In this document: positions 39,529 through 61,579 of the stretch, piece by piece | Numbering within the stretch: the stretch's first letter is position 1 | Layout of the letters: every line of letters starts with the position of its first letter | Assembly: GCA_016213825.1 (NCBI GenBank) | Contig: JACQZP010000019.1 | Span: 124,001-188,000 of the forward strand | DNA: 64,000 bases | Reading direction: 5' to 3' | Source: Acetobacterium woodii | GTDB taxonomy: Bacteria > Bacillota > Clostridia > Eubacteriales > Eubacteriaceae | Translations under genes and position numbers: made by a program | The notes under the pieces: model-generated | Database searches by the model: none | The model's input: the letters and a program-made list of their open reading frames with translations, nothing else | What the model was told of the DNA's origin: nothing

Positions 39529-40425
<897 letters not shown>

Positions 40426-40492
40426 TTATTTTCATATAAGATATAAATTAAAACCCATGATACGATCAGAATTTTATTGCAGCTACGCAAAT

Positions 40493-40568
40493 AAAAAAGA
40501 ACACAATCTAAAGAACTATTACAAATAGTTGCAAAAGATGTGTCCTCTGGTTTTCCAGTCAGAAACAT
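40493..40568 (-). promoter_or_regulatory. RNA element with terminator, copy A (nifH-like leader)
   Basis: On the - strand: outer stem TGTTTC/GACACA (one mismatch), TGA, inner stem CTGG-AAAA-CCAG, AG (40568 to 40539). The 3' outer strand is also the 5' arm of a terminator (GGACACATCT … AGATTGTGTTC, then six T at 40498-40493) with an inner AACTATT/AATAGTT hairpin. The inner stem differs from the other copies by a compensatory pair change (A-T to G-C). Confidence 0.75.
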
Positions 40569-40598
40569 AAGTTTAGGTGAAAATCATATTTTACAAAT

Positions 40599-40649
40599 CA
40601 GATATGAATGATATGCTATAAATTTAAGCTACTTCCGACTATTTGTCAA
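40599..40649 (-). promoter_or_regulatory. Promoter and operator of the nifH-like gene
   Basis: Read on the - strand: TTGACA (40649-40644), 17-bp spacer, TAAATT (40626-40621), then CATAT-N7-ATCTG (40615-40599), a one-mismatch version of the shared dyad. Confidence 0.7.
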
Positions 40650-40738
40650 CAGTTATTTTTAGCAAAGGATATATTTTAGCTGAAGATAAATTTGAAAACG
40701 TTATAGAAAATAAAAGAAATCAAAAATCAAAAAAAGTA

Positions 40739-40785
40739 TTGACTTATTATTAAGGACATATTAAAATCATATAATACATATATGA
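40739..40785 (+). promoter_or_regulatory. Promoter and operator of the yezD-nifX-nifB operon
   Basis: TTGACT (40739-40744), 17-bp spacer, TAAAAT (40762-40767), followed by TCATAT-N7-ATATGA (40767-40785), a perfect dyad. Divergent from the nifH-like promoter about 90 bp away. The ATG at 40782 is inside the operator and is therefore not the start of the first gene. Confidence 0.75.
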
Positions 40786-40832
40786 ATACAAAGTATTTGA
40801 TAATTACAGCGAAATACTATTTGGAGGTAATG

Positions 40833-40994
40833 ATGGAGAGTCCTAATGAGAAAAAAAGAATTGAAATTGACACAAGTGTTCAGGATAAAATCCAAGAAGT
40901 ACTTTGTCAAATTAACAATGGATCTGTTACCATTATCAAACAGAATAATGCCGTGGTTCAAATAAATTTAGTTGAAAAACTAAAGCTTGTATAA
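40833..40994 (+). CDS. YezD-family (DUF2292) small protein 1
   Basis: 53 residues from ATG 40833 (ATG 40830 equally possible), 5 bp after GGAGG. The segment VQDKIQEVLCQINNGSVTIIKQNNAVVQINLVEKLKL matches DUF2292/YezD, a family of ~55-residue proteins commonly placed beside sulfur-assimilation genes. Function unknown. Together with the next gene it forms a divergent tandem pair at the head of the nif-like operon. Confidence 0.75.
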   Translation: MESPNEKKRIEIDTSVQDKIQEVLCQINNGSVTIIKQNNAVVQINLVEKLKLV

Positions 40995-41022
40995 TTTGGC
41001 CAACAAATCTTGAGAAAAGGAA

Positions 41023-41196
41023 ATGATCATGATATTAAAGAATAGAGAAAACCAGAGAGTAACTCAAATATCAGAAAGTGATTTAAAAAAGCTGATTGAT
41101 TATATTGAAAGCATTCAATATGGATCTGTTACCTTGATCATACAGGACTGCAAGATTGTTCAAATTGAAAAGAGTGAAAAGATCCGGTTAAAATAA
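41023..41196 (+). CDS. YezD-family (DUF2292) small protein 2
   Basis: 57 residues, too short for most gene callers. SDLKKLIDYIESIQYGSVTLIIQ and DCKIVQIEKSEKIRLK are the canonical YezD pattern, closer to the family than copy 1. AAAAGG lies before ATG 41023. It is followed by 250 bp holding RNA element copy B and a terminator, then the NifX-like genes. Confidence 0.8.
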   Translation: MIMILKNRENQRVTQISESDLKKLIDYIESIQYGSVTLIIQDCKIVQIEKSEKIRLK

Positions 41197-41264
41197 TCTG
41201 TTTATCTAAAACAGGTAATTCAAAACTGAATTTTAGCATAAAATATTGCAAAATAATAATCAAG

Positions 41265-41327
41265 TGAAACTGACTAGAAAACTAGAGGTTTCAGAAAAAG
41301 CAAGAACTTTTTCTGATGCCTTTTTTT
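41265..41327 (+). promoter_or_regulatory. RNA element with terminator, copy B (before nifX-nifX-nifB)
   Basis: Outer stem TGAAAC/GTTTCA (6 bp, perfect), TGA, inner stem CTAG-AAAA-CTAG, AG (41265-41293). The strand AGGTTTCAG then pairs onward into a terminator with CTTTTTCTGATGCCT (41307-41321) and T-run to 41327. Transcripts from the yezD promoter must pass it to reach the nif-like genes. The rest of 41197-41449 has no gene; ATG 41381 opens a 7-codon ORF with one Cys but no ribosome site. Confidence 0.8.
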
Positions 41328-41449
41328 ATTTGTTTATTTTTGAAGAGCATTTTGTTGATTGGGCAAGTAGAGTGCGATTAATGGACAGGTGCAAAATTAA
41401 TTAAGCTAAAATTTGCGAGTTTGGTTAGTTAAAGAAAGGAAATGTAGGA

Positions 41450-41827
41450 ATGGCATATCGAGTAGCGATAACATCATCTGACGGCAATCAAATTGATCAG
41501 CATTTTGGCAAGTCAAAAAGCTTTTATATTCTCGAGATTGAAGAAACCGGGGAGTGGGAAACCATAGAGTTGCGAGAAGTCGAAGCAAGCAAAGTTGAAG
41601 AGCTAGCAAAGAAACTGGGAGTAAAGTGCGAATGCGCCGGTCATAATGATGTATATCTGAATTATGTGAGTTCATTATTAGGCGATTGCACCTACCTATT
41701 GACTTCTCAAATTGGGGCGAAACCATATAATGCTTTACAAGAGAATAATATCAATAGTCTTGAAGCGCCCAGAGATTTAGCTGTGGCAATTGAGAAAGTG
41801 AACAGCTTCCATTTAAAAACAAAATAA
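41450..41827 (+). CDS. NifX/NafY-like cofactor-binding protein 1
   Basis: 125 residues of the dinitrogenase iron-molybdenum cofactor biosynthesis family: MAYRVAITSSDGNQIDQHFGKSKSFYILEIEE is the signature start, CECAGHND (~66) and SQIGAKPYNAL (~96) follow. Family members bind NifB-co or FeMo-co and carry it between assembly proteins. GAAAGGAAA ribosome site before ATG 41450. With the next two genes it forms the cofactor branch of the nitrogenase-like system. Confidence 0.85.
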   Translation: MAYRVAITSSDGNQIDQHFGKSKSFYILEIEETGEWETIELREVEASKVEELAKKLGVKCECAGHNDVYLNYVSSLLGDCTYLLTSQIGAKPYNALQENNINSLEAPRDLAVAIEKVNSFHLKTK

Positions 41828-41876
41828 AAGATAAAAAGGTAATGTATCTATTGAAGCAGTAGATAAGGTGATAAAC

Positions 41877-42212
41877 ATGAGAATAGCGGCCGCAAGTTCC
41901 GATGGAAAATTAATCAATCAGCATTTTGGACATGCAAAAGATTTTTATATTTTTGAAAAAGATGCAGACCGGTTCCGGTATCTGGAATTGCGGACTGGAA
42001 AACCATTCTGCAATGGCGGAGAACATGACGATGATGAACTCGAAGATGCGATTAACCTCATTGAAGATTGTTCCTATGTTTTAGTAACCCAGATTGGGAA
42101 TGGCGCTGAACTTGAATTAAATAAGCGCGGAATCATCGCAAAAATAGCCAGAGGCTTTTTTAATGATTGTTTAATAGAATTTCATAACGAATTAGCAGAA
42201 GGGAATCAATAA
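41877..42212 (+). CDS. NifX/NafY-like cofactor-binding protein 2
   Basis: 111 residues, same fold as its neighbour (MRIAAASSDGKLINQHFGHAKDFYIFEKD). Similar to the C-terminal domain often fused to NifB; here it is a free protein next to a NifB lacking that domain. ATG 41877 is chosen 8 bp after AAGG; GTG 41868 is an alternative. Stop is adjacent to the nifB start. Confidence 0.85.
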   Translation: MRIAAASSDGKLINQHFGHAKDFYIFEKDADRFRYLELRTGKPFCNGGEHDDDELEDAINLIEDCSYVLVTQIGNGAELELNKRGIIAKIARGFFNDCLIEFHNELAEGNQ

Positions 42213-43079
42213 ATGAGTCAGTTAAATAAGGTAAAAGAACAGCATCCATGCTTTGGTGCTAAAAAAAACAAGGGCAGAATTCATTTGCCGGTGTGTCCGG
42301 CGTGCAATATCGAGTGTAAATTTTGCGATCGGAAAATAAACGACCATGAAAATAGACCGGGAGTGGCTTCGACCATTCTTAAACCAGAAGAAGCAGCAAA
42401 ATCAATTGGTAGAGCGTTGGAACTTTGCCCAGATATTACGGTTGCCGGAATTGCTGGTCCGGGAGATACCCTTGCGACTGATGGTGCGATTCAGACATTT
42501 CGGCTGATAAAAGATCAATATCCGGAATTACTAAAATGTATGAGTACCAATGGACTACTCTTAAATGAACGGGCCGAAGAATTAATCGAATTGGGAATTG
42601 ATACCTTAACAGTTACGGTTAATGCAGTAGATCCTAAAATTCAGGCGCAGATCATTTCTGGGATTCGCTATCATGGAAAACGGTATGAAGGCGAAGAAGC
42701 GGCAGAAATACTCATTCATAATCAGTTGGAAGGCATCCGAAAGATGACCGCGGCGGGGGTTGTGGTCAAAGTCAATACGGTATTAATCGTCGAAATTAAT
42801 CGAAATCACATCCAGGAAATTGCAAAAGCAGTCAGCGAAGTCGGGGCAAGCATGTATAATATTATCCCGTTAATTCCCCAGCATGAATTGGTCAATTGTA
42901 TTGAACCGGAATGTGGCGATATTGATGGTGCAAGACAGGAAGCTGAAGCGTATATTGATGTATTCAGACATTGTCAGAGATGCCGTGCTGATGCAGTCGG
43001 TATTCCAGGCGGACACGATTATGGGGATCAGATCTATCTCAAACGATTAGAAGTTAAAGACACATTTTCCCACGGTTGA
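42213..43079 (+). CDS. nifB: NifB radical SAM cofactor maturase, single-domain form
   Basis: 288 residues. HPCF (~11-14), radical SAM CNIECKFC (Cys 31, 35, 38), NRPGV (~47), AGPGDTLA (~85) and CQRCRADAVG (~254) are all NifB hallmarks. Builds the [8Fe-9S-C] NifB-co by fusing two [4Fe-4S] clusters with a SAM-derived carbide. The NifX-like domain is separate. No nifE or nifN is in view, so NifB-co or a close derivative may be the final cofactor, as proposed for Mar. Confidence 0.92.
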   Translation: MSQLNKVKEQHPCFGAKKNKGRIHLPVCPACNIECKFCDRKINDHENRPGVASTILKPEEAAKSIGRALELCPDITVAGIAGPGDTLATDGAIQTFRLIKDQYPELLKCMSTNGLLLNERAEELIELGIDTLTVTVNAVDPKIQAQIISGIRYHGKRYEGEEAAEILIHNQLEGIRKMTAAGVVVKVNTVLIVEINRNHIQEIAKAVSEVGASMYNIIPLIPQHELVNCIEPECGDIDGARQEAEAYIDVFRHCQRCRADAVGIPGGHDYGDQIYLKRLEVKDTFSHG

Positions 43080-43115
43080 TAGCAATCAAAAAAATCTTTG
43101 TAAATTAAATTTCGA

Positions 43116-43162
43116 TAACTCATTCATTTTCTTCGGTCAAATGACAGGAAGTTAATGAGTTA
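43116..43162 (+). repeat. Two-tier hairpin between nifB and the leader of the sulfhydrylase
   Basis: TAACTCATT (43116-43124) pairs with AATGAGTTA (43154-43162); inside, CATTT/AAATG encloses a 9-nt loop. No T-run. Perhaps a processing or stability site after nifB. Confidence 0.5.
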
Positions 43163-43227
43163 ATATAAAAAGCACTTATTTAGGGCTAATATTTTATTTT
43201 AGATCAGTTAAAGAAAGGAAGACGACG

Positions 43228-43329
43228 ATGAAAGCACGGAAATTAGAAAAATTAAATTTATCGATGTGTTGTTGCATGCCAGTGGGGATGTTTAATTGTT
43301 GTACCATCAATATTAAAAAGATTCTATGA
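43228..43329 (+). CDS. Cysteine-rich leader peptide before O-acetylhomoserine sulfhydrylase
   Basis: 33 codons from ATG 43228 with AAAGGAAG upstream. Contains SMCCCMPVG (Cys 14-16, TGT TGT TGC at 43267-43275) and FNCCT (Cys 24-25, 43297-43302): five cysteines in 33 residues, in two runs. A terminator starts 23 bp after its stop. This is the layout of a transcription-attenuation leader sensing charged Cys-tRNA. No independent protein function is expected. Confidence 0.75.
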   Translation: MKARKLEKLNLSMCCCMPVGMFNCCTINIKKIL

Positions 43330-43352
43330 TGCGATATCAAGCTGCAAATAAG

Positions 43353-43383
43353 CAGGTTTCTCATTATAGAGACCTGTTTTTTT
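43353..43383 (+). terminator. Attenuator terminator before the sulfhydrylase gene
   Basis: CAGGT-CTC / GAGACCTG stem with a two-base bulge, ATTATA loop and seven T, lying between the cysteine leader and ATG 43435. Its position upstream of the gene makes it an attenuator. Confidence 0.75.
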
Positions 43384-43434
43384 ATTTTCGATTACTAATA
43401 AAAATTTTATTTAACAAGCGAAGGAGAAACGATT

Positions 43435-44745
43435 ATGGCGAATGAAAACTACAAATTTGATACCTTAAAAGTAAGAGGGGGTTACAAGCCCGAAGATCAC
43501 AATTATTCGGTTGCGGTTCCCATTTATCAGACGGCGGCATATGATCTGGGAAGTCCGGATCGTGCTGATAATCTTTTTTTAGGTAATGAAGAAGGTTTCT
43601 TATATACCCGGGTCAATAATCCCACGGTGGATGTGCTGGAAAAAAGAGTGGCTGCTTTAGATGGCGCTGTAGCTGGTATTGCATTAGCGGCAGGAATGGC
43701 TGCGATTGCTTATACCATTTTAAACATCGCAGAAGGTGGAGGACGGATATTATCCAGTGCATACATTTATGGCGCTGCTTCAGACAGTTTTAAAAAAATA
43801 TATCCTAAATTTGGGATATATTTTGATCTTTCCAGAAATTTTGAAAACCTGATTGAGCTGGAAAAAGAAATCAAACCAGATACCAAAGCAATCTATGTCG
43901 AATCAATCAGTAACCCCAACGGTGCCCTTGTTGATATTGAAGCGTTAGCAGAGTTAGCGCATAAGCATGGCATCCCGTTGGTCGTGGATAATACCTTTGC
44001 AACCCCCTATTTGTTTAATCCCATCAAACATGGTGCGGATATTGTTGTTTATTCCGCAACCAAAGCCTTAAATGGTCATGGAAACGTGATTGCTGGACTG
44101 GTTTTGGAAAGTGGCAATTTTAATTGGGATTCAGAAAAATTCCCGCAGTTCCAGGAAAAACACTATACCTTAAGAGATGAACAGGATAAACCCCGAAGTT
44201 TTGCCGAAAAATTCCCGGATTTCCCTTTTACCACACGGATCAGACTGAATTATCTCAACTATCTGGGGGCATCCATCAGCCCGTTTGATGCCTATTTAAT
44301 ACTGCTTGGGATTGAAACCCTGTCAGAGCGCATCCAGAAACAGGTTTCCAACACAATAAAAGTGATTGAGTATCTGGAGAAAAATGAACATGTGGAATGG
44401 ATTAAATATCCATCATTAAAAACAAGCCCCTATTATGAATTGTCTGAAAAGTATTTTCCCCGGGGGACTGGTTCGGTTCTGTCATTCGGATTTTTGGGAA
44501 GTCTTGAAAAAATCAAGGAGTTTATCGAAACGGTTAATATCTTCAGTTATCATGCAAATGTAGGTGATGCACGATCATTAATAATCAATTCGCCAAGAAC
44601 CACTCACAGTGAATTAACGCCTGATGAGCAAAACTATGCCAAAATTGAACCAAATTTGATTCGATTGTCAATTGGACTGGAAGATCCGGATGATTTAATA
44701 GCAGATTTAGATCAGGCATTTAAGCAGGTATTTAAGGAAGCATAA
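43435..44745 (+). CDS. metY: O-acetylhomoserine sulfhydrylase (MetY type)
   Basis: 436 residues, the long MetY form of the Cys/Met metabolism PLP family. PLP Lys ~210 in SATKALNGHG, YTRVNNPT (~57), VDNTFATPYL (~184). Condenses O-acetylhomoserine with sulfide or methanethiol to homocysteine or methionine. Next to a methylthio-alkane-reductase-like pair, capture of released methanethiol as methionine is the attractive reading. GAAGGAGA ribosome site. Followed by a large inverted repeat. Confidence 0.92.
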   Translation: MANENYKFDTLKVRGGYKPEDHNYSVAVPIYQTAAYDLGSPDRADNLFLGNEEGFLYTRVNNPTVDVLEKRVAALDGAVAGIALAAGMAAIAYTILNIAEGGGRILSSAYIYGAASDSFKKIYPKFGIYFDLSRNFENLIELEKEIKPDTKAIYVESISNPNGALVDIEALAELAHKHGIPLVVDNTFATPYLFNPIKHGADIVVYSATKALNGHGNVIAGLVLESGNFNWDSEKFPQFQEKHYTLRDEQDKPRSFAEKFPDFPFTTRIRLNYLNYLGASISPFDAYLILLGIETLSERIQKQVSNTIKVIEYLEKNEHVEWIKYPSLKTSPYYELSEKYFPRGTGSVLSFGFLGSLEKIKEFIETVNIFSYHANVGDARSLIINSPRTTHSELTPDEQNYAKIEPNLIRLSIGLEDPDDLIADLDQAFKQVFKEA

Positions 44746-44761
44746 AAAGAAGCAACATTAA

Positions 44762-44848
44762 TTTTAGGTAATTGTGTGGACGCTATTTCTTTGGCATTTT
44801 AAGATCAAACTTTATGATCGTGCCGATAAATCTCACAATTACCTAAAA
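44762..44848 (+). repeat. 15-bp perfect inverted repeat enclosing 57 nt, before nifD-like 1
   Basis: TTTTAGGTAATTGTG (44762-44776) and CACAATTACCTAAAA (44834-44848). The loop holds a smaller GGCA…TGCC / GATC…GATC hairpin. No T-run, so not a terminator. Sits in the 135-bp gap between metY and the first nifD-like gene, just before its ribosome site. Confidence 0.65.
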
Positions 44849-44879
44849 CTAAAATCAGGAAAAAGGTCAGGTGTTTTGA

Positions 44880-46367
44880 TTGAGTAAAGTTAATTTAGAA
44901 AGATCTGAAGTTGAGGTAAGAGAGCGCCGTCTTGGTTCTATTACCGGCTTTGAAGGAAGTGCCAAAGAGCTGATCGATTCGGCCAGATGTGGCAGTTTGA
45001 AAGATAAAAGCCGCTCGTTTAGCCAGTGTCTGGGCTGCTCGACTTCCAATGCGGCGTGTACGGTTATTCTTATTCAGGATGCAGCTGTCATCAGTCATGG
45101 TCCGGTTGGCTGCGGCGGTTGCCTGCATGAATTTGCATTTACCTATCGGGTGAATGGTGTCCACAGAGGCGTAGATAATCCAACGCAACGACGCATCTTC
45201 AGTACGAACATGAAAGAGGAAGATACGATTTACGGCGGCAGTGAAAAGTTGTTTAAAACTATTTATGAAGTTGAACGACGGGTGAAACCCAAGGCCATCT
45301 TTATTGTCACGACCTGTGCATCGGGAATTATTGGTGATGACGTGGAAAGCATTGCCGAGGAAGCCGAAGACGAAATCGGGATACCTGTAGTGGCAATTTT
45401 TTGTGAAGGGTTCCGCTCAAAAATCTGGACCTCCGGATTTGATGCGGGTTACCATGGCATTGCCAGAAAATTGATAAAAAAAGCCACTAAAAAACAAACG
45501 GATCTCGTCAATATTATCAATTTCTGGGGCACCGATATTTTTGCCGACTGGTTTGGCAGATTGGGATTACGGGCAAATTATTTAACGCCTTACGCAACCA
45601 TTGATCAAATTGCCCACTCGTCAGAAGCAATTGCCACCATCCAGATCTGTTCAACCTTGGGATCGTATCTGGGGGCAGCATTAGAACAGGAATATGATGT
45701 GCCGGAGATACGGGTTTCACCGCCTTATGGCATTGCTCAGACCGATCGATGGTTTCGGGAACTGGGAAAAATAGCGAACAGAGAAAAAGAAGTGGAAATA
45801 TTTCTGGCAGAGGAACGGGAACGCTGGCTGCCCCAAATTGAAGAACTGCGTAAACAACTGGCAGGAAAAACAGCCTATGTTACCGCCGGGGCATCACATG
45901 GACATTCACTGCTGGCACTGTTGAAAGAATTAGGCATGAACCCGCAGGGGGCAGCGATTTTTCATCATGATCCCATCTATGATAATGGTGCCGTTGAGTC
46001 CGATTCGCTGCAGAATGTGGTCAATGATTATGGTGATATCCCCAACTACAATGTTTGCAACAAGCAGGAGTATGAGTTAGTCAATGTCTTAAATCGGATT
46101 CGTCCAGATGTACTGCTGGCTCGTCACGGTGGGATGACCCTTTGGGGAGCCAAGTTTGGGATACCCTCATTACTGATTGGAGATGAGCATTTTGGAATGG
46201 GGTATCAGGGGATTGTTCAGTATGGCGAACGGATTCTTGAAACCATCGAAAATGATGAATTTGTAAAAAATCTGGAAAAACATGCCATCAACCCTTACAC
46301 AAAATGGTGGCTTGATCAGGATCCTTATGCTTTTCTGGGAGGTGACACCAATGTCAGGACTTATTGA
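44880..46367 (+). CDS. NifD-like catalytic subunit, pair 1
   Basis: 495 residues from a TTG start (AGGTG 7 bp upstream). P-cluster-type cysteines: Cys 50/53 in SQCLGC, Cys 78 in HGPVGCGGC, Cys 146 in TTCASGIIGDD. Positions matching the FeMo-co ligands Cys275 and His442 of NifD are Cys 257 (QICSTLGSY) and His 437 (GDEHFGMGYQG), so an active-site metallocluster is likely. Overlaps its NifK-like partner by 17 bp. Closest known function: methylthio-alkane reductase MarD; substrate unproved. Confidence 0.82.
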   Translation: MSKVNLERSEVEVRERRLGSITGFEGSAKELIDSARCGSLKDKSRSFSQCLGCSTSNAACTVILIQDAAVISHGPVGCGGCLHEFAFTYRVNGVHRGVDNPTQRRIFSTNMKEEDTIYGGSEKLFKTIYEVERRVKPKAIFIVTTCASGIIGDDVESIAEEAEDEIGIPVVAIFCEGFRSKIWTSGFDAGYHGIARKLIKKATKKQTDLVNIINFWGTDIFADWFGRLGLRANYLTPYATIDQIAHSSEAIATIQICSTLGSYLGAALEQEYDVPEIRVSPPYGIAQTDRWFRELGKIANREKEVEIFLAEERERWLPQIEELRKQLAGKTAYVTAGASHGHSLLALLKELGMNPQGAAIFHHDPIYDNGAVESDSLQNVVNDYGDIPNYNVCNKQEYELVNVLNRIRPDVLLARHGGMTLWGAKFGIPSLLIGDEHFGMGYQGIVQYGERILETIENDEFVKNLEKHAINPYTKWWLDQDPYAFLGGDTNVRTY

Positions 46368-47685
46368 GCAGCAACGTTTTATGTGTGCCATCGGTGGCAT
46401 GCAGACAGTTGTGGCGATTCCCCGGGCGGTTCCGATTCTTCATTCCGGCCCGGGATGCGGAACCATGGTGTCGGGCTTTTTTGAAAGAGCCACCGGTTAT
46501 TCAGGCGGCAGCACGGCGCCGTGCACCAATTTTAGTGAGTCGGAGGTTGTTTTCGGGGGAGCGGAAAAACTGCAGCGACTAATTGAAAATACTTATAAGG
46601 TGCTGGATACGGATCTTCAGGTTGTTTTAACCGGCTGCACATCGGCCATTGTTGGGGATGATGTCGGGAGCGTCGTCAGTACCTTTGCCGATGAAGGAAA
46701 ACCGATCGTTTATGTTGAAACAGCCGGGTTTAAATCAACCAATTATGAAGCCCACAGTACAATTGTTAATGCGATTATTGATCAATATGTTGATAAGTTT
46801 ATTGACGCTGCTGATGAGAAAGACCCCAAACTGGTCAATCTATTTGCCTCAATTCCCTATCAGGATCCGTTCTGGAAAGGAAATCTTGAAGAGTATAAGC
46901 GACTGCTTGAAGGGATCGGGCTTAAAGTAAATATTCTGTTTGGGCCTTATTCCGGTGGCGTCGATGAGTGGAGAAGTATCCCAAAAGCCGGATTCAATAT
47001 CCTTATCTCACCCTGGTATGGCACAGAAATTGTCACACATCTGGAAGCGAAATATAACCAGCCATTTTTTCAGTTTCCATATATTCCCATTGGCGGAAAT
47101 GAAACGACCCGTTTTTTGGAAGATTTGATCATCTTTGCAAATGATCATGGTGCTGAGCTTTCAATGGAGCAGGCAAAGCACTTTATCAAAACTGAAGAAT
47201 TGGCATTTTATGAAGAAATTGATAATCTGGCCACGTTTCTGTTGGAATTTCGCTATGGTTTACCCAGCTTTGTGCACATCCTCCATGATGCCGGCTATGT
47301 GCTGGGAATTTCGAAATTTTTGCTTCATGAAGTGGGGATCATACCGAAAGAATTATTTATTACCGATGATACCCCGGAAGAATATCAGGAATTAATCACC
47401 TCTCTGGGATTAAAAATATCAGAGAAGCGGGCGATTCCCATCTTATTTAAAGCAGATGCCGGCGAGGCTCAGGAAATTATAAAAAAAACTGACCATCGGG
47501 GCCGTGGACTGATTATTGGCAGTGGTTGGGATAAAGAATTGGCCAAAGATAAAAATTATGATTTCTTATCGGCGGCACTGCCTTCACCCTATCGAATGAT
47601 CTTAACCTCGGGTTATGCCGGCTACAAAGGTGGTTTGCGCTTAATTGAGGATATTTATAATAAAGCACTTGATACCTACCGCTAG
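46351..47685 (+). CDS. NifK-like subunit, pair 1
   Basis: 444 residues from ATG 46351 behind GGAGGTG; an upstream in-frame ATG within nifD is rejected. Cys 12 (RFMCAIGG), Cys 36 (HSGPGCG) and Cys 96 (LTGCTSAIVGDD) match the NifK P-cluster ligands. Short like MarK-type and other group IV proteins, lacking the NifK N-terminal extension. Forms the heterotetramer with the NifD-like protein. A terminator follows at 47735. Confidence 0.82.
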   Translation: MSGLIEQQRFMCAIGGMQTVVAIPRAVPILHSGPGCGTMVSGFFERATGYSGGSTAPCTNFSESEVVFGGAEKLQRLIENTYKVLDTDLQVVLTGCTSAIVGDDVGSVVSTFADEGKPIVYVETAGFKSTNYEAHSTIVNAIIDQYVDKFIDAADEKDPKLVNLFASIPYQDPFWKGNLEEYKRLLEGIGLKVNILFGPYSGGVDEWRSIPKAGFNILISPWYGTEIVTHLEAKYNQPFFQFPYIPIGGNETTRFLEDLIIFANDHGAELSMEQAKHFIKTEELAFYEEIDNLATFLLEFRYGLPSFVHILHDAGYVLGISKFLLHEVGIIPKELFITDDTPEEYQELITSLGLKISEKRAIPILFKADAGEAQEIIKKTDHRGRGLIIGSGWDKELAKDKNYDFLSAALPSPYRMILTSGYAGYKGGLRLIEDIYNKALDTYR

Positions 47686-47734
47686 AAAGCGGTAAGACGA
47701 CAGATTAGTTTTTTAAAATAATCGAAGAATCTAT

Positions 47735-47775
47735 AAAAAGGGTAGGTGCTCAAAAGCGAGTGACTGCCCTTTTTT
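47735..47775 (+). terminator. Terminator of the metY-nifDK operon
   Basis: AAAAAGGG…GCTC / GAG…CCCTTTTT hairpin with T-run, 50 bp after nifK-like 1. Confidence 0.8.
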
Positions 47776-47820
47776 ATGCAGTACAAAAATATACACAAGC
47801 GTTTTGCTTAGGAGGTAAAA

Positions 47821-49584: not shown

Positions 49585-49600
49585 GCATTGAGGAGAAACG

Positions 49601-49654
49601 ATGGGATTTGATCAGAAATTAATAAATGTAGCATTAGAAAAACTATATTTTTAA
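49601..49654 (+). CDS. Possible 17-codon small ORF after ade
   Basis: AGGAG lies 5 bp before ATG 49601; the peptide has the form MGFDQKLINVALEKLYF and ends 10 bp before a terminator. I recognise nothing in it. It could be a small protein, or the remnant of a decayed gene in the ade operon. Confidence 0.3.
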   Translation: MGFDQKLINVALEKLYF

Positions 49655-49664
49655 GAAGATCGTT

Positions 49665-49710
49665 AAAAAATCACCGCGATAATTTATTTAATTATCACGG
49701 TGATTTTTTT
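49665..49710. terminator. Bidirectional intrinsic terminator
   Basis: AAAAAATCACCGCGATAAT / ATTATCACGGTGATTTTTTT hairpin between convergent ade and amidohydrolase genes. Confidence 0.9.
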
Positions 49711-51073: not shown

Positions 51074-51100
51074 TGATGCCTCCTTATTTAAAACGTGATA

Positions 51101-51158
51101 TTCATATCGTAAAAATATGAATTAAAATACATTATACTCTTTAAAGTGAAATTGTCAA
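51101..51158 (-). promoter_or_regulatory. Promoter and operator of the MTA/SAH deaminase-like gene
   Basis: On the - strand: TTGACA (51158-51153), 16-bp spacer, TATAAT (51136-51131), then TTCATAT-N7-ATATGAA (51121-51101), a perfect dyad identical in both arms to the cysK one. Confidence 0.75.
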
Positions 51159-51213
51159 TATGATGATGGGTATAATAGCAACTTATCCACTTGGCATAAA
51201 ATCAAAAACATCC

Positions 51214-51272
51214 TTGACAAATTTTATTCTATGCGATATTATTTCATATAAATCATATATGCTTTATATGAA
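51214..51272 (+). promoter_or_regulatory. Promoter with two overlapping operators before the M20 deacylase
   Basis: TTGACA (51214-51219), 17-bp spacer, TATTAT (51237-51242). Two overlapping CATAT-N7-ATATG dyads offset by 9 bp (cores 51245-51261 and 51254-51270). Their outer arms also form a larger TTTCATATAAA / TTTATATGAAA palindrome. Confidence 0.75.
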
Positions 51273-51292
51273 ATAAAGTGAAGCGGGTTAAT

Positions 51293-52513
51293 ATGAATAT
51301 TCAAGCTAATATAGAAAAAGAGAAAGACTATCTGGTGTCGGTTAGGCGACATTTACATAAAAACCCTGAGTTGAGTTTAAAAGAATATGAAACAGCCACT
51401 TATATCGAAGAACAGCTGGATTCTTTTGGGATTACTCACCGCAGAGTGGGGGAAACTGGCGTTTTAGGAATTATTACTGGCAAGCAGGGAAGTGGCAACA
51501 AAATTTTATTGAGAGCCGACATCGATGCCCTGCCCATTCAAGAAAATACATCAGCCACTTATCGCTCAAAAAAACCAAATGTCATGCATGCCTGTGGGCA
51601 TGATGTCCATACCGCGGCACTTCTTGGGGCGGCTAAAATTCTCCAGGCACAAAGCGAACTATTTGCAGGTGAAGTATTACTGGTGTTTCAAGCGGCGGAA
51701 GAATTCGGTCGGGGATCACAATATTTTCTGGCAGAGAAGATAACAAAGGATGTCGATCGTTCATTCGGCATTCATGTCGCTCCTGATTTCCCGGTCGGTA
51801 CCATCGCAATGACCAAAGGTGCTGATGCAGCAAGCTGTGATTATTTTAAAATTGCGGTAAAAGGAAAGGGTGCCCACATTTCAAAAGTACATCAGGGCAT
51901 TGATGCCTTACATATTGCGAGTTTGATTGTCACGGAACTTCAGACTTTGGTAAAACGAATTGTTGATCCCTGTGAAGTTGCATTAATTGGCGTAGGCAAA
52001 ATTTCATCAGGTACTTCTTATAATATTATTGCTGAAGATGCGTTTTTAGAAGGGACGACTCGCGCCTTTACCAATGAGACTCAAGGTCTGCTGCAATCAG
52101 CAATACCAGAATTAGCCGATCAGATTGCTCAGAAACACGGTGGCAAGGCAACAACTAAATTTGAATCATTTGCAGCAGCTCTTATTAATGACGATATCGC
52201 TTTTGATGAAGTATATAAGATAGCCAGTTTAATCATCGGCGAAGAAAATATTGTCACTGAACAAGAGCTCATTGTAGGGCTGGGATCAGATGACTTTTCA
52301 GAATACCTACAAGATACAAAGGGCGTTTATGTGCATATTGGCACAGCCAATGAACACAACCCGGATACAAAGTACTCTTTGCATAACAATAAATTTGATG
52401 TGGATGAACAGGCGTTGCTGATAGCAGCAAGTCTGCATATTGAATATGCTCTTTCCATTTTAAAAGGCGAGACGGATATCCATTTATGGGACAGCTATGC
52501 TTATAGCATCTAA
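51293..52513 (+). CDS. M20-family amidohydrolase/deacylase
   Basis: 406 residues from ATG 51293 (weak AAGCGGG site); GTG 51278 abuts the operator and is less likely. LRADIDALPIQE (~71), HACGHDVHTAALLG (~96-109), AAEEFGRG (~130) and the lid domain are those of the hippurate hydrolase / N-acyl-amino-acid deacylase group. In B. subtilis a CymR-controlled member deacetylates N-acetyl-S-substituted cysteines; a like role is inferred here from the operators. Confidence 0.8.
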   Translation: MNIQANIEKEKDYLVSVRRHLHKNPELSLKEYETATYIEEQLDSFGITHRRVGETGVLGIITGKQGSGNKILLRADIDALPIQENTSATYRSKKPNVMHACGHDVHTAALLGAAKILQAQSELFAGEVLLVFQAAEEFGRGSQYFLAEKITKDVDRSFGIHVAPDFPVGTIAMTKGADAASCDYFKIAVKGKGAHISKVHQGIDALHIASLIVTELQTLVKRIVDPCEVALIGVGKISSGTSYNIIAEDAFLEGTTRAFTNETQGLLQSAIPELADQIAQKHGGKATTKFESFAAALINDDIAFDEVYKIASLIIGEENIVTEQELIVGLGSDDFSEYLQDTKGVYVHIGTANEHNPDTKYSLHNNKFDVDEQALLIAASLHIEYALSILKGETDIHLWDSYAYSI

Positions 52514-52587
52514 AATAATCCAGGTCAATTTAAAATAATATGAGAACCCGTTTTGAAAAAATCTCGTGTAAAAACCAAGGAGGAGCT

Positions 52588-53973
52588 ATGGACGAAAACA
52601 TTGTTTTAAAGAAACTGTATGAAAAATATATCAGTCCGACAAAAAAGAAGCGTGAAAAATATATGGGTGTTGAAATTGAAATACCGATTGTCAATCTAAA
52701 TGGCGAACCGGTCGAGTTTTCCATCGTTCATCAACTGACGGATGCATTTGCGGCAGAGTTTAAAATGGTACCTATCAGCGTTGACGATGATGGCCACATC
52801 TGCTCACTTCAAAATTATCAAAACGGTGATAATTTTTCTTATGACTGCTCCTATAATAATTTGGAACTTTCAATGGGTAAGGAACAAAACCTGAATATTT
52901 TATCAGAAAGATTCAAAACGTATTATTCATTTATTAATGGTTTTTTAAACCTGTTTAATCATACTCTTACCGGTATGGGGATTAATCCTTATCGAAAAAC
53001 GAATCGAAATGTACCCATAAAGAATGAGCGCTATCGCATGTTATATCATTACCTGGGGTCATATAAAAATTATTCACATCCGGAATTTTTCCATAATTAT
53101 TCAGATTATGGGATGTTCTCCAGTGCGTCTCAGGTGCAGATTGATGTGGACTATGCTGATTTGTTGGATACGATCAATGTTTTTTCAAAGTTGGAACCCA
53201 TTAAAGCCTTGTTATTTTCCAATGCAGTGATGCCAGAAGATGAACATGGTACGCTTTGCGTTCGGGATATGTTATGGAACAACAGTATGCACGGAGTCAA
53301 TTCTAAAAATGTTGGACTGTTTGAATGCGAATTAAAAAGTGAAGATGATTTACTTGCGTATATCGCTAAAACAAGTTTATATTGTACCATGCGAGACGGA
53401 AGGTACATTAATTTTGAGCCGACTCCCGTGTTGGAATACTTCAAAAAAGATACGATCAATGGAGAATTCTGGAATGGAACTGCGTACGAAAAGATAACCT
53501 TTCAGCCTCAAATTGAAGATATTGAATATCACAGAACCTTTAAGTTTGAAGACCTGACTTTTCGTGGAACCATTGAATTTCGCAGTTGCTGTTGTCAGCC
53601 AATTTCTGATGCGATGACCGTGGCGGCTTTTCACATTGGTTTGATTACGGTTTTGGATCAAGTGAAACTATTTCTGGACGATGATGACGTTCTATTTAAA
53701 AAAGGTTTAAAAATAGCAAGCTTGCGGGAAGCATTCTGTCGCGGTGAGGTGCCGGAATATATTGATGAAGATGAGCTCCAGTCACTTGTTTTGTCAATAT
53801 TAAATCTCGCCTGTACCGGACTAGAAAAACGCGGCTTTGACGAAGCGCACTTTTTGGATCCGCTTTATGAACGGGCAAAGAAAAAAACCAATCCAGCCAA
53901 AGAGTATTTGACGGCCATTACACAAAATGTACCAATAAAAGAGCTGATTTTGCAATATGCAGCGCTTGATTAA
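52588..53973 (+). CDS. Glutamate-cysteine ligase-like protein
   Basis: 461 residues from ATG 52588 behind AAGGAGG; an ATG 48 bp upstream lacks a site. KYMGVEIEIPIVNLNGEPVEF (~28-48), SYDCSYNNLELSMGKEQNL (~83) and TFRGTIEFRSCCCQPISDA (~325) fit the glutamate-cysteine ligase fold. Family reaction: ATP-dependent gamma-glutamyl bond to the amino group of cysteine. It is 74 bp after the M20 gene in the same operon. It could act on a cysteine analogue; no glutathione synthetase is nearby. Confidence 0.65.
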   Translation: MDENIVLKKLYEKYISPTKKKREKYMGVEIEIPIVNLNGEPVEFSIVHQLTDAFAAEFKMVPISVDDDGHICSLQNYQNGDNFSYDCSYNNLELSMGKEQNLNILSERFKTYYSFINGFLNLFNHTLTGMGINPYRKTNRNVPIKNERYRMLYHYLGSYKNYSHPEFFHNYSDYGMFSSASQVQIDVDYADLLDTINVFSKLEPIKALLFSNAVMPEDEHGTLCVRDMLWNNSMHGVNSKNVGLFECELKSEDDLLAYIAKTSLYCTMRDGRYINFEPTPVLEYFKKDTINGEFWNGTAYEKITFQPQIEDIEYHRTFKFEDLTFRGTIEFRSCCCQPISDAMTVAAFHIGLITVLDQVKLFLDDDDVLFKKGLKIASLREAFCRGEVPEYIDEDELQSLVLSILNLACTGLEKRGFDEAHFLDPLYERAKKKTNPAKEYLTAITQNVPIKELILQYAALD

Positions 53974-54015
53974 GTTCTAAATGAAAATAAAAAGAAGATA
54001 AGTAAAAAATAATTG

Positions 54016-54069
54016 TTGACAAATATCGACAACTGATTTAAAATACATTAAACATATAGGAATTATATA
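54016..54069 (+). promoter_or_regulatory. Promoter and operator of the permease operon
   Basis: TTGACA (54016-54021), 17-bp spacer, TAAAAT (54039-54044), then CATAT-N7-ATATA (54053-54069), a one-mismatch copy of the dyad. The gap 53974-54375 contains this promoter, RNA element copy C, its terminator and a cysteine leader ORF. Confidence 0.7.
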
Positions 54070-54089
54070 ATTTGAATATGAGCTTGTTT

Positions 54090-54151
54090 TACTGCTGACT
54101 AGAAAACTAGAGGCTGTATACCTTAACCAGGAATACAGCCTCTAGTTTTTT
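54090..54151 (+). promoter_or_regulatory. RNA element with terminator, copy C (permease leader)
   Basis: Outer stem TACTGC/GCTGTA (one mismatch), TGA, inner stem CTAG-AAAA-CTAG, AG (54090-54118). The alternative fold is a 13-bp perfect terminator, CTAGAGGCTGTAT (54107-54119) with ATACAGCCTCTAG (54133-54145) and six T. Its 5' arm uses the inner-stem 3' strand, the AG and the outer-stem 3' strand, so the two folds exclude each other. Confidence 0.85.
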
Positions 54152-54305
54152 GTCAAAAGCGCTAGAACGTTTAGCTGGAAGCTCTATTTTATATGAGGTC
54201 GTAGTAATATTAAACAATAGGTTTGTAGGCAGTACGGGCAAATGGACTTCATAAAATTTTAAGATTTCTATTGATTTAATTAATTGATTAAGGGAGTGAA
54301 AAGTC

Positions 54306-54332
54306 ATGAAACGATGTTGTATTAGCGTATAA
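54306..54332 (+). CDS. Minimal cysteine leader peptide before the permease
   Basis: Eight codons, MKRCCISV, from ATG 54306 with GGGAG 9 bp upstream; two adjacent Cys codons (TGT TGT, 54315-54320). It ends 44 bp before the permease start and downstream of element C. No terminator follows, so any effect would be on translation or Rho access rather than intrinsic attenuation. Confidence 0.55.
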   Translation: MKRCCISV

Positions 54333-54375
54333 ATGTTGATTAATGAAAAAGTATTCAAATAAGGAGGTTATCCAA

Positions 54376-55827
54376 ATGAGTAAAAATAATAAAAGTGAAC
54401 AAATCAGCAAATCGGGTTTAAGATCCGAATACTTAACACCCCTTGAGGTATTGGGGCAGTCAATAGCTAACATTGCACCCAGTGCAACACCGGCGCTGGT
54501 AATTCCACTAGTTTTTGCAACGGCCGGAAATGGAACCTGGTTGGCATATTTATTTGCAACGATTGCAATCGCATTTGTGGCAGCAAATCTAAATCAATTT
54601 ACCAGAAGATCGGCATCGCCGGGTTCTTTATATGCTTATGTCGCCAAAGGACTTGGTTCAAATGTTGGTGTTATTGCTGGTTGGGCCCTGGTTTTGGCCT
54701 ATATTTTAACAGGCGGTGCGGTACTTACCGGATTTGTTAACTATGCAAACGTACTGTTTGAATATGGTGGAATTACGATTCCGCCAGTGTTGATCGCCAT
54801 TGTCGGTGCAGTCGGAGCGTGGTTTTTAGCGTTTAAAGATATAAAACTTTCCACCAAAATTATGCTGGTCCTTGAAGTCATCTCGTTATTATTGATTATT
54901 ATCCTTGCTCTGGTGGTTATTATAAGTAATGGATTTACATTTGACTTTGGACAATTATCGTTAGAAGGTGTATCCATAACCAGTATTGGAACCGGATTGG
55001 TGCTGGCATTTTTTAGTTTTACCGGTTTTGAAAGTGCATCGTCTTTAGGTGATGAAGCAAAAAATCCCTTGAAATCAATTCCCCGAGCAGTTATTCGCAG
55101 TGCCTTATTTGTTGGGATATTCTTTGTTGTGTTGTCTTATTCAGAAGTTTTAGGATTTATTGGCAGCAGTACTACTCTTGACAGTGCCGCAGCTCCATTA
55201 TCTGATATTGCAACGACATATGGAATTGGATTCTTTGGTCCACTTATTTCGATTGGGGCTTTAATCAGTTTTTGGGCGTGCTTTCTGGCTTGCACCAATT
55301 CAGGCGCAAGAATACTGTTTACCATGAGTCAACACGGTATTTTTCATTCATTGATTGGCGATGCCCATGCAGATAACAAAACTCCCCACATTGCCATCAC
55401 AATTACAGCTTTACTGGCAACGATTGTTCCGGTAATTTTGATTGGATCAGGAGCCGGTTTGTTTGATATTTACGGTTGGATAGGTACCATTGCAACCTAT
55501 GGGTTTATTACCCTTTATACGCTCATATCGATTGCAGCACCGGTTTATCTTTATCATGAAAAAGAGCTAAAACCAAAGAATGTTATTATTTCGGTAGCTT
55601 CTGTCCTGGTGTTGCTGATCCCAATTATTGGCAGCATTTACTCGAATGCCCAGGCGGCACCATATAGCTGGTTTATATTTATTTATCTTGGATGGTTGGT
55701 GCTGGGTGCTATTTGGTTGGCATTTAGAAAGGTTCAAACACCGGATGTTTCTAGTGAAGTGAGCACTCGGATTGAAACGGTGCATCAACATTATCGCGAA
55801 GCAAGAGCAAACGGTGATGGAATTTAA
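54376..55827 (+). CDS. APC-superfamily amino acid permease
   Basis: 483 residues, about twelve membrane helices. The first helix region LGQSIANIAPSATPAL and GLVLAFFSFTGFESASSLGDEAKNP (~215) are typical of APC amino-acid/amine permeases. ATG 54376 has AAGGAGGT at 54361-54368; an in-frame ATG at 54343 lies before that site. Operator, RNA element and cysteine leader all mark it as a sulfur-regulated importer, perhaps of cystine, methionine or an S-substituted cysteine. Confidence 0.85.
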   Translation: MSKNNKSEQISKSGLRSEYLTPLEVLGQSIANIAPSATPALVIPLVFATAGNGTWLAYLFATIAIAFVAANLNQFTRRSASPGSLYAYVAKGLGSNVGVIAGWALVLAYILTGGAVLTGFVNYANVLFEYGGITIPPVLIAIVGAVGAWFLAFKDIKLSTKIMLVLEVISLLLIIILALVVIISNGFTFDFGQLSLEGVSITSIGTGLVLAFFSFTGFESASSLGDEAKNPLKSIPRAVIRSALFVGIFFVVLSYSEVLGFIGSSTTLDSAAAPLSDIATTYGIGFFGPLISIGALISFWACFLACTNSGARILFTMSQHGIFHSLIGDAHADNKTPHIAITITALLATIVPVILIGSGAGLFDIYGWIGTIATYGFITLYTLISIAAPVYLYHEKELKPKNVIISVASVLVLLIPIIGSIYSNAQAAPYSWFIFIYLGWLVLGAIWLAFRKVQTPDVSSEVSTRIETVHQHYREARANGDGI

Positions 55828-55846
55828 TTTACAATGAGGTGAAAAT

Positions 55847-57133
55847 TTGGGTCTAATTGAAATAGAGAAATTTATAAATGAAAATAATATTCATACCGTC
55901 GAATTGGGTTTTGCCGATATTAATGGCGTTTTAAGGGGGAAAACCCTTCCCGCCAGACACTTTCTGAAGATTGCCGAGCATGGTTCAGGGCTTGCCAAAG
56001 CCCCTTTTGCCTGGGATATTCAGTGCGATGTTTATGATGATGTCGAATTTGCCAATTTTGATAACGGTTTTCCCGAAATGGTAGCAAAACCGATTCTCTC
56101 GTCTTTAAAAATACTACCTTGGCGGGAAGGAACGGCTTTTGCTTTTGCAGACATTGTCGATGAGGAAGGTCATGCCATCCAAGAAAACCCCAGAGAAGTT
56201 CTGAAGAATGTATTAAAACGCTATCGTGACTTGGGGTTAAGGCCGATTGTTGGTTCTGAACTGGAATTCTATCTTCTGGATTCAGATAAAAAACCAGTAT
56301 TTGATGGCATCCAATGCTACTCGTTATACCGGGGTTCCGAACTTGAGTACGTGATCGCCGAGATGAGAAACAGCCTGGAAGCTTTAGGTATTGAGTTGGA
56401 AGCCTTCCATATTGAGTACGGTCCCGGACAGATTGAGGTCATTCCAGAATGCGATGATGCGTTGGAAATGGCTGATAAAACAGTGTTGATTAAAAATACC
56501 ATTAAAGAAATAGCCCGTAAACACGGTTTATATGCCACATTTATGGCAAAACCCTGGGCAGCAGAATCTGGAAGCGGTTTTCATGTTCATCAAAGCCTGT
56601 GGGATCTGGAATTAAAAAACAATATCTTTGATTCCGACCCGAACATTGCGGGCAACTATCTGGCCGGATTGTTAAAGCATGCCAGAGATTTTATGGTATA
56701 CGGATCGCCAACCATCAATGATTATAAGCGCTTTCAACCAAATTCCTTTGCGCCCACCCGGGTCACCTGGGAACACGACAATCGCACCGTGGCCACCCGT
56801 TCATTGTTGGGATTGGGAAAAAATAGTCGTTTTGAGCAGCGGAATGGCTCCGCTGCGGCAAACCCTTATTTAATTATTGCGGCAAGTTTGGCTTCAGGAA
56901 TCGATGGGATTGAAAATAAATTGATTCCGCCTAAAAATCTGGATGAAAACAGTCTTGAATTTCCCAGAACTTTGGATGGCGCCTTGAATTATTTTGAAAC
57001 CAGTGACGCAGCAAAAAAATACTTTGGCGAAAAATTTGTTAAATTATTTATTACTTTAGGTCGACACGAAGTAGAAATTTATCAGTCGGTAGTAACGGAC
57101 TGGGAATGGCAGAGATATCTTGAAATCATATAA
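55847..57133 (+). CDS. Glutamine-synthetase-family gamma-glutamyl ligase
   Basis: 428 residues from a TTG start (GAGGTG upstream). NGVLRGKTLP (~25), metal site GSELEFYLLD (~139), HIEYGPGQIEV (~187), GSGFHVHQSL (~242), PNSFAPTRVTWEHDNRT (~300). Somewhat short for GlnA and lacking the adenylylation region, like gamma-glutamylpolyamine and other amine gamma-glutamyl ligases. Cotranscribed with the permease, so it may gamma-glutamylate the imported amine, for example a thioether amine. A hairpin (57178-57204) follows. Confidence 0.75.
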   Translation: MGLIEIEKFINENNIHTVELGFADINGVLRGKTLPARHFLKIAEHGSGLAKAPFAWDIQCDVYDDVEFANFDNGFPEMVAKPILSSLKILPWREGTAFAFADIVDEEGHAIQENPREVLKNVLKRYRDLGLRPIVGSELEFYLLDSDKKPVFDGIQCYSLYRGSELEYVIAEMRNSLEALGIELEAFHIEYGPGQIEVIPECDDALEMADKTVLIKNTIKEIARKHGLYATFMAKPWAAESGSGFHVHQSLWDLELKNNIFDSDPNIAGNYLAGLLKHARDFMVYGSPTINDYKRFQPNSFAPTRVTWEHDNRTVATRSLLGLGKNSRFEQRNGSAAANPYLIIAASLASGIDGIENKLIPPKNLDENSLEFPRTLDGALNYFETSDAAKKYFGEKFVKLFITLGRHEVEIYQSVVTDWEWQRYLEII

Positions 57134-57177
57134 CTGAATTTTTTTGGAACCGTTTTATACAAATTTACAATGATATT

Positions 57178-57204
57178 GCAAAATGCTCCCCCCTAGCATT
57201 TTGC
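57178..57204 (+). repeat. Hairpin after the ligase gene
   Basis: GCAAAATGCT / AGCATTTTGC with a 7-nt C-rich loop and no T-run. A second hairpin with a T-run follows at 57263-57301. Confidence 0.6.
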
Positions 57205-57262
57205 GCAAATTGCTTGTAATAGAACAAAAATTCGTTATGATTAGAGTTATAAAAATTCATCT

Positions 57263-57301
57263 AAAAAAGTTTGCTGTGAATAAAACATGGCAAGCTTTTT
57301 T
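57263..57301 (+). terminator. Terminator of the permease operon
   Basis: AAAAAAGTTTGC / GCAAGCTTTTTT (one G-T pair), ending in six T. Confidence 0.7.
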
Positions 57302-57379
57302 ATTTTCTAGGATGAAACTTGATTTCTTCATGCTAGAATGTTCTTTTTTAGAAACAATTGAATGGTTGCAAAAAAAGGA

Positions 57380-57431
57380 TTGACAGACTAAGAACGTTAT
57401 ATTAAAATACAATTCATACAAAACATATATT
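57380..57431 (+). promoter_or_regulatory. Promoter and weak operator of the ABC-cysK-nifDK operon
   Basis: TTGACA (57380-57385), 17-bp spacer, TAAAAT (57403-57408), then CATAC-N7-ATATT (57415-57431), a two-mismatch version of the dyad. The 57134-57763 gap also contains the terminator above, RNA element D and a second terminator. Confidence 0.65.
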
Positions 57432-57479
57432 AATACAGTAGTATTTATTGTTGCGAGCTAATTTAATAAATTGTTCATT

Positions 57480-57540
57480 TGAAACTGACTAGAAAACTAG
57501 AGGTTTCAGGAAAGCTTTCTTTCCTGAGATCTCTTTTTTT
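57480..57540 (+). promoter_or_regulatory. RNA element with terminator, copy D (ABC transporter leader)
   Basis: Outer stem TGAAAC/GTTTCA, TGA, CTAG-AAAA-CTAG, AG (57480-57508). The strand AGGTTTCAGGAAAG (57501-57514) pairs fully with CTTTCCTGAGATCT (57519-57532, two G-T pairs), followed by a T-run, so the terminator and the outer stem exclude each other. Confidence 0.85.
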
Positions 57541-57609
57541 ATTAAAAGACCTAGCATTTTTAAAGAATGAAACTCTCAAATTAAGCAAGGTAATATCAAA
57601 AATTTGATC

Positions 57610-58834: not shown

Positions 58835-58861
58835 TAGTTAAGTCAACGAAAAGGTGATTAA

Positions 58862-60592: not shown

Positions 60593-60613
60593 TCATGTAA
60601 TTAGGAGGGTGAA

Positions 60614-61546: not shown

Positions 61547-61579
61547 AATAAATAGTGATACAAAGTAAAGGAGACGTTA

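Follow-up and report, generated by a model that had tools for sequence, protein, structure and literature searches.

A terminator-overlapping hairpin that accompanies DUF2292 (YezD/OscA) small proteins: a candidate antitermination target before sulfur-scavenging operons

The window analysed here, a 64-kb stretch of Acetobacterium woodii contig JACQZP010000019.1 (from a genome of 3.94 Mb), carries one short element in four gene leaders, and the question raised by this locus is what reads that element. In an earlier note it was described as a repeated RNA switch; the observation was confirmed and its interpretation was supported in part. With good probability, judging from sequence comparisons, the element is the RNA target of small DUF2292 proteins and part of an antiterminator that would switch on sulfur-scavenging operons. 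Two open reading frames (ORFs) for such proteins, which the earlier note omits, stand just upstream of copy 2. The elements and the two ORFs are:

40537..40569, minus strand: element copy 1, upper stem CUGG/CCAG, leader of a nifH-like gene
41263..41295, plus strand: element copy 2, upper stem CUAG/CUAG, between the DUF2292 genes and nifX-nifX-nifB
54088..54120, plus strand: element copy 3, upper stem CUAG/CUAG
57478..57510, plus strand: element copy 4, upper stem CUAG/CUAG
40830..40994, plus strand: DUF2292 small protein 1 (PF10055, E=9.8e-8)
41029..41196, plus strand: DUF2292 small protein 2, candidate RNA-binding antiterminator (PF10055, E=3.1e-17; helix plus beta-hairpin predicted)

The hairpin and its overlap with terminators

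All four sites claimed for the element were recovered, with cores at 40545-40561 (minus strand), 41271-41287, 54096-54112 and 57486-57502 (plus strand). The core TGACTRGAAAACYAGAG, with up to three mismatches allowed, occurs exactly four times in the window, in comparison to a mean of 0.43 and a maximum of three matches in shuffled windows (four were reached in 0 of 100). In the whole genome the exact core is confined to these four copies (none for a reversed-pattern control), and the same four are the only matches of two RNA models: R1, built from the window copies only (E<=0.01), and R2 (E<=0.1), for which 98 sequences were selected automatically and 89 were used. The other nine looked like chance matches and were removed by eye, so this model leans towards structure.

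The element is a 29-nucleotide (nt) hairpin whose outer stem and 4-bp upper stem are separated by a GA/A internal loop and capped by an A-rich apical loop of 4 or 5 nt (AAAA in the window). The outer stem consists of YU/GG plus two covarying pairs and ends in C-G and U.G, and the upper stem is, as had been read from the letters, CTAG/CTAG in three copies and CTGG/CCAG in one. Folded alone, the window elements form the hairpin at -8.7 to -11.5 kcal/mol, whereas the longer leaders prefer a terminator that uses the 3' side of the element (-19.9 to -37.1 kcal/mol). The intrinsic terminator that the earlier note placed over the 3' side of each copy is thus present in the predicted folds of all four leaders:

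40491..40546, minus strand: intrinsic terminator over the 3' arm of copy 1 (predicted fold, sequence)
41284..41326, plus strand: intrinsic terminator over the 3' half of copy 2 (predicted fold)
54106..54151, plus strand: strong intrinsic terminator, its 5' arm beginning in the upper stem of copy 3 (leader fold -37.1 kcal/mol)
57499..57541, plus strand: intrinsic terminator over the 3' half of copy 4 (predicted fold)

The exact 18-base core (including the preceding C) was searched in contigs, one genome per species, and was found in at least 116 stretches outside the window, mostly from Bacillota. Counts of core-selected sequences, leaders and downstream proteins refer throughout to the matches listed among these stretches, whose carriers include Lachnospiraceae, Clostridium, Fictibacillus and other bacilli, Schwartzia, Propionispira, streptococci, Geobacteraceae and Treponema. 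About 30 chance matches are estimated for that collection. Seven matches, picked by taxon and context, were treated as such (Bacteroidales, Balneolales, Verrucomicrobia, Planctomycetaceae, Flavobacteriaceae, Marinomonas and one further bacterium), and an eighth, L029, was left out of the test; the second outer pair is absent in five of the seven and present in L091 and L121.

The overlap with a terminator extends to most of the core-selected leaders, 114 of 118 of which were folded (short or duplicate ones were excluded). In 95 of the 114 the 3' arm pairs downstream in the minimum free energy fold, in comparison to 17 % with shuffled flanks, a control which, like the shuffled cores used below, preserves base content only. 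A leader was counted when at least five of the seven bases of the 3' outer arm pair downstream. Eight leaders keep this arm inside the element in the predicted fold, and a run of four U is present in 100. The median energy is -29.9 kcal/mol for the leader versus -7.8 kcal/mol for the element alone; by these predictions element and terminator are mutually exclusive and the terminator is the more stable.

Covariation had been claimed on the ground that the outer stem has three different sequences that still pair. This holds for copies 2 and 4, which are fully paired and have identical outer stems, but not for copies 1 and 3, each of which contains one mismatch (U.C and U.U). With so few differences the four copies alone provide little covariation and the claim required other genomes, where it is found well beyond them. 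The counts were made on alignments A2 and A7, neither chosen by the stem tested. For the outer stem 118 sequences (98 distinct) were selected by the core only; the A2 pattern predetermines most upper-stem positions as well as the U.G and the C next above. In the 98 distinct sequences 80.8 % of outer-stem cells are paired versus 72.3 % after shuffling, and 171 cells are double-changed versus 91, the 171 being reached in 0 of 500 shuffles. The four inner pairs form in 98, 93, 89 and 63 of these copies, where the search pattern dictates the first pair and the C of the second. Pairing at the lower three positions is weak, near the shuffled expectation.

For the upper stem 57 candidates behind 112 DUF2292 loci were chosen by the outer stem and GA/AG only. 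All four positions pair in 34 of the 57, in comparison to 0.6 % with shuffled cores. In the 34 candidates with a 12-nt core 75.7 % of upper-stem cells are paired versus 53.5 % shuffled, with 31 double changes versus 10.8 and a score of 0.513 versus 0.198 (0 of 500 shuffles in both cases). The upper stems found were CTAG/CTAG, CTGG/CCAG, CTAA/TTAG, CTGA/TCAG, CCAG/CTGG, CCGG/CCGG, CCAA/TTGG, TCAG/CTGA, GCAG/CTGC and CTTG/CAAG. A structured cis-regulatory RNA element is nearly certain. A DNA operator was also considered; it was ruled out by the covariation of both stems and by the overlap with a terminator.

The earlier note could not assign the element to a known riboswitch class, and no Rfam family was found at gathering score at any element examined. 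At this threshold Rfam gave no match in the window and seven in 18 other loci, all lying outside the elements; at E<=5 copy 3 matched microRNA and small RNA models only, all under their gathering scores and taken as chance.

Downstream genes and the DUF2292 partner

The genes named in the earlier note as controlled by the four copies were correct according to Pfam and NCBIfam matches:

39529..40386, minus strand: nifH-like gene, downstream of copy 1 (Pfam Fer4_NifH; NCBIfam TIGR01287 above cut-off)
41450..43079, plus strand: nifX-nifX-nifB, downstream of copy 2 (nifB below its NCBIfam cut-off)
54343..57133, plus strand: operon of an amino-acid permease and a glutamine-synthetase-like ligase, downstream of copy 3
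57764..63241, plus strand: SsuA-like binding protein, ATP-binding cassette (ABC) ATPase, permease, cysK-like PALP enzyme and nitrogenase-like component, after copy 4

The core search placed further copies before sulfur and nif-like genes in other genomes. Downstream proteins numbered 109, of which 108 were counted (one duplicate was dropped); nine core matches had no suitable downstream ORF. Among the 108 are 15 matches to cysH, 14 to nifB, eight to sulfonate-type permeases (also matching taurine and nitrate models), seven to family-3 binding proteins (six match the cystine model, among others), five to cysK, five to uroporphyrinogen-III methyltransferase, four to NMT1 and three to nitrogenase-like components, and by these annotations the set reads as a sulfur-acquisition regulon. 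For Rhodobacter a nitrogenase-like enzyme for sulfonate assimilation is described in the available text of PMC11423573.

One genome, G387, has 15 copies of the element with several different upper stems. Tandem or second copies were seen at L076:7649-7677 (this second copy is without an obvious terminator), L128:7787-7819 and L201:333-466.

The small proteins recur together with the hairpin. DUF2292-like ORFs (iterated profile) are present in 51 of the 116 stretches, which were fetched by the RNA pattern alone. Forty-five of these ORFs, at 44 elements, end 0-245 nt before the core. The distance does not exceed 21 nt for 37 of them, and in 12 of the 45 adjacent pairs the UGA of the element doubles as the DUF2292 stop codon. 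Both the shared UGA and the 37 short distances would suit translation-coupled attenuation, with a ribosome at the stop codon controlling the folding of the element. However, no DUF2292 gene precedes three of the four window copies, the elements of 41 genomes have no preceding DUF2292 in the fetched stretch (three of these stretches give less than 500 nt upstream, so a nearby gene could be missed), and a single genome can hold 15 copies; such attenuation is thus very improbable.

Among these 41 genomes 36 encode PF10055 somewhere, in comparison to none of the seven chance-like genomes (p=1e-5). Two of the five exceptions, L061 and L073, have a small similar-looking ORF before the element, recognised by eye (the profile E values of 2.7 and 0.11 are non-significant), and in a third, Anaerovirgula L095, the contig also contains a diverged DUF2292-like ORF. 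In genome-wide tests, which ignore kinship, R1 (E<=0.01) matched 25 and PF10055 22 of the 291 genomes of the window's class, with both in 13 versus 1.9 expected (p=1.4e-10). The corresponding numbers for 61 relatives were five, six and four. In the genus (19 genomes) both occur together in three, and a further one, G009, shows only a marginal RNA match (E=0.0077). In a further 30 DUF2292 loci R2 matched in 16 (three of these matches are identical to a training sequence), 11 of them 0-400 nt after the gene. The coupling of the element to DUF2292 is very likely.

In L041 (3960-4528) and L077 (3409-3942) a cobalamin riboswitch is followed by a DUF2292-like ORF and then by the element, two switches in series.

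DUF2292 proteins are about 55 amino acids (aa) long. The two window proteins exceed the Pfam gathering score (62.3 and 31.9 bits versus 22) and match no Pfam family except DUF2292 at E<=0.001, and they stay under the cut-off of 85 of the OscA equivalog NF033785 (25.0 and 19.7 bits; protein 2 matches NCBIfam OscA at E=1.4e-5). A helix and a beta-hairpin are predicted (predicted local distance difference test score, pLDDT, 83.5), and G32, Q45, E50 and K51 are invariant across 32 aligned relatives. Searched by sequence against solved structures, the DUF2292 protein gave no match at E<=1. Among the control genomes a PF10055 match was found in Bacillus subtilis, in a gene that we take to be yezD. 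Two DUF2292 matches share one open frame of approximately 115-157 aa in L017, G425, G508, G631 and G638, and the match in a relative (G004:C99:36033-36140, L341) has an in-frame TAG although the element adjoins.

PF10055 is rare in Gammaproteobacteria (5 of 185 genomes). R2 matched in three of the six gammaproteobacterial loci fetched (26.7, 22.5 and 16.3 bits), and in L334 the element was recognised by eye. L335 encodes a true OscA (124.8 bits versus the cut-off of 85), followed by the element (the weak match of 16.3 bits) and a sulfate-binding protein gene.

Among viral contigs, 10 IMG/VR stretches (L302-L311) contain the core, each with a terminator-like hairpin after it. A DUF2292-like ORF precedes the core in five of them (profile E<=2.3e-6) and in three more by eye only; L304 has no upstream sequence, and in L310 no DUF2292-like ORF stands upstream of the core. 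Two streptococcal satellite phages (L312 and L313), found by the protein, have a variant element directly after the ORF. Small phage ORFs that precede the element match DUF2292, two of four exceeding its cut-off, and, below cut-off, XtrA; they resemble XtrA of PBSX (PF17356) and PHROGs 1551 and 4556. The PHROGs provide no function, and the context is that of phages.

Proposed antitermination by DUF2292 and its alternatives

That a 29-nt hairpin with a three-nucleotide internal loop tracks DUF2292 suggests an antiterminator that depends on a protein. In its default state the leader would fold as the intrinsic terminator, with the 3' side of the element as its 5' arm, and transcription would stop. 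DUF2292, probably as an oligomer, would bind the GA/A internal loop and the A-rich apical loop; the bound hairpin, stabilised against the terminator, would retain its 3' arm and allow read-through into the sulfur-scavenging genes. In the window a promoter upstream of copy 2 would drive synthesis of the proteins, which would allow read-through of their own operon (nifX-nifX-nifB) and control copies 1, 3 and 4 in trans. The signal would be sulfur starvation, which may act on the amount of DUF2292 rather than on the RNA. The sequences show the hairpin and its covariation, the overlap with a terminator, the regulon and the association with DUF2292; direct binding, the ON direction and the starvation signal we infer, and antitermination via direct DUF2292 binding is likely.

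If the RNA switch of the earlier note is taken to be a metabolite riboswitch, a sulfur metabolite would stabilise the hairpin over the terminator and DUF2292 would be merely a member of the regulon. The sulfur-centred regulon, the overlap with a terminator and the lack of an Rfam class at gathering score are compatible with this, and aptamers as small as about 33 nt exist (preQ1). Outside the stems, however, only the GA/A internal loop and the loop of 4-5 nt are conserved, the co-occurrence with DUF2292 in trans is strong, and in phage and satellite loci a DUF2292-like ORF precedes the element with no sulfur gene recognised. A riboswitch of this kind is distinctly unlikely.

The same co-occurrence would be expected if DUF2292 bound the RNA and repressed, by favouring termination or by acting on translation or RNA decay. 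The four gammaproteobacterial loci without a direct hairpin and U-run would fit repression, as would L338, where the element immediately precedes the region in which the next ORF starts. On the other hand, in 95 of 114 leaders the 3' arm becomes part of the downstream fold; since the terminator consumes this arm and is already the stable default, binding to the element should disfavour it. Moreover, oscA is reportedly tied to chromate resistance and the response to sulphur starvation (Viti 2009, as cited in text available from PMC2996968), and repression is unlikely.

Several observations weigh against antitermination by DUF2292 or against the coupling on which it is built. In the phylum (299 genomes) R2 at E<=1e-3 matched 36 genomes and PF10055 46, with both in 28 versus 5.5 expected, which speaks for the coupling, but R2 was partly trained on genomes of this phylum, and with the training genomes removed the figure is 4 of 12 (p=0.0085). 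Eighteen of the 46 PF10055 genomes are without an R2 match at E<=1e-3 (12 at E<=0.1), and eight of the 36 genomes with a strong R2 match are without PF10055. DUF2292 loci fetched by the protein likewise favour the coupling, with a structural match up to 400 nt downstream in 26 of 74 (about 0.23 expected from shuffles) and upstream in one of 74, but the rule was widened after viewing the same loci; under the original, narrower rule the count was 15 of 74, or 25 times the rate in other parts of those loci. G665 and G667 have the element, and DUF2292 or a like ORF was not found there. No hairpin with a U-run directly follows the element in the four gammaproteobacterial loci (no run of four U within 170 nt in L336 and L338, U6 107 nt on in L335, U4 25 nt on in L334), so the output may differ there. 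Foldseek and VIA-align, applied to the predicted fold of DUF2292, gave no convincing solved relative (best E 4.7; best Z 2.3), which does not establish the fold as new. Finally, B. subtilis yezD, of unknown function and up-regulated in deep starvation, could be deleted with no loss of viability in deep starvation, and sulfur is unmentioned in the available text (PMC6385201).

The proposed antitermination resembles known systems in part. BglG, LicT and SacY stabilise a ribonucleic antiterminator (RAT) hairpin of about 29 nt, the 3' arm of which overlaps an intrinsic terminator; they control several operons in trans, and the protein gene often lies within a controlled operon. The hairpin described here likewise overlaps an intrinsic terminator (95 of 114 leaders, and the window copies). 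Unlike BglG/LicT, the protein has about 55 aa and no match to the BglG (CAT) RNA-binding domain, the element has a GA/A internal loop and an A-rich loop, and the genes concern sulfur rather than sugar. ANTAR proteins bind two consecutive hairpins with hexanucleotide loops, whereas the element is a single hairpin with a loop of 4 or 5 nt.

Closest on the protein side is Pseudomonas oscA-sbp (NF033785), of the same Pfam family, and L335 has the element between OscA and the sulfate-binding gene. Pseudomonas oscA encodes a small protein of unknown function, is co-transcribed with sbp and has been linked to sulphur starvation and chromate resistance (Viti et al. 2009, via the accessible parts of PMC2996968 and PMC3596284); in contrast to the pairing proposed here, these parts mention no RNA target. 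Likewise, titles and abstract openings in the literature searched describe no RNA target for DUF2292. Naville and Gautheret (2010) reported a premature-terminator element common to a sulfonate ABC operon and an unknown gene (PMC2965389), which may be the element described here; the text available gives no structure or factor.

With more reserve, we lean towards the view that DUF2292/YezD/OscA proteins and XtrA-like relatives (approximately 45-60 aa) form with the hairpin a general and portable antitermination module, which would serve sulfur starvation in Bacillota and Gammaproteobacteria and operons of phages and satellites. If true, it would be a new protein-RNA family of gene control and would give a function to several families of unknown function. 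A testable function is offered for DUF2292/YezD/OscA with regulons predictable directly from sequence, and an RNA family is added that Rfam release 15 does not report at any scanned element. Sulfur scavenging by nitrogenase-like enzymes would be tied to one switch, phages and satellites may use the same protein-hairpin pair, and the pair is small enough for structural work.

Promoters and neighbouring genes

The DUF2292 operon and copies 3 and 4 are preceded by promoter-like TTGACW-17-TAAAAT sequences, and the one of copy 1 is weaker; all are consensus matches only:

40644..40649, minus strand: -35-like TTGACA in the copy 1 leader, 80 nt before the element
40739..40767, plus strand: promoter-like TTGACT-17-TAAAAT, DUF2292 operon
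54016..54044, plus strand: promoter-like TTGACA-17-TAAAAT, copy 3 leader
57380..57408, plus strand: promoter-like TTGACA-17-TAAAAT, copy 4 leader

Just 3' of these promoters lies a stretch similar to ATACATATATGAAT with two to three mismatches in 14, which is possibly an operator; promoter and stretch together fall within 40739-40815, 54016-54070, 57380-57440 and, on the minus strand, 40649-40600. A cysK-like PALP gene in the window is directly followed by an Rrf2-family regulator (29871-31237). CymR belongs to the Rrf2 family, and a CymR-like control of these promoters would be a guess.

On the minus strand at 38223-39318 a short protein-kinase-like ORF and a zinc-ribbon ORF adjoin the nifH-like gene. 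The window also contains a corrinoid cluster (31791-38129) encoding a B12-binding protein, two URO-D type proteins, CobW, DUF1638 and RACo, and in genome G387 URO-D and CobW genes are found downstream of elements as well.

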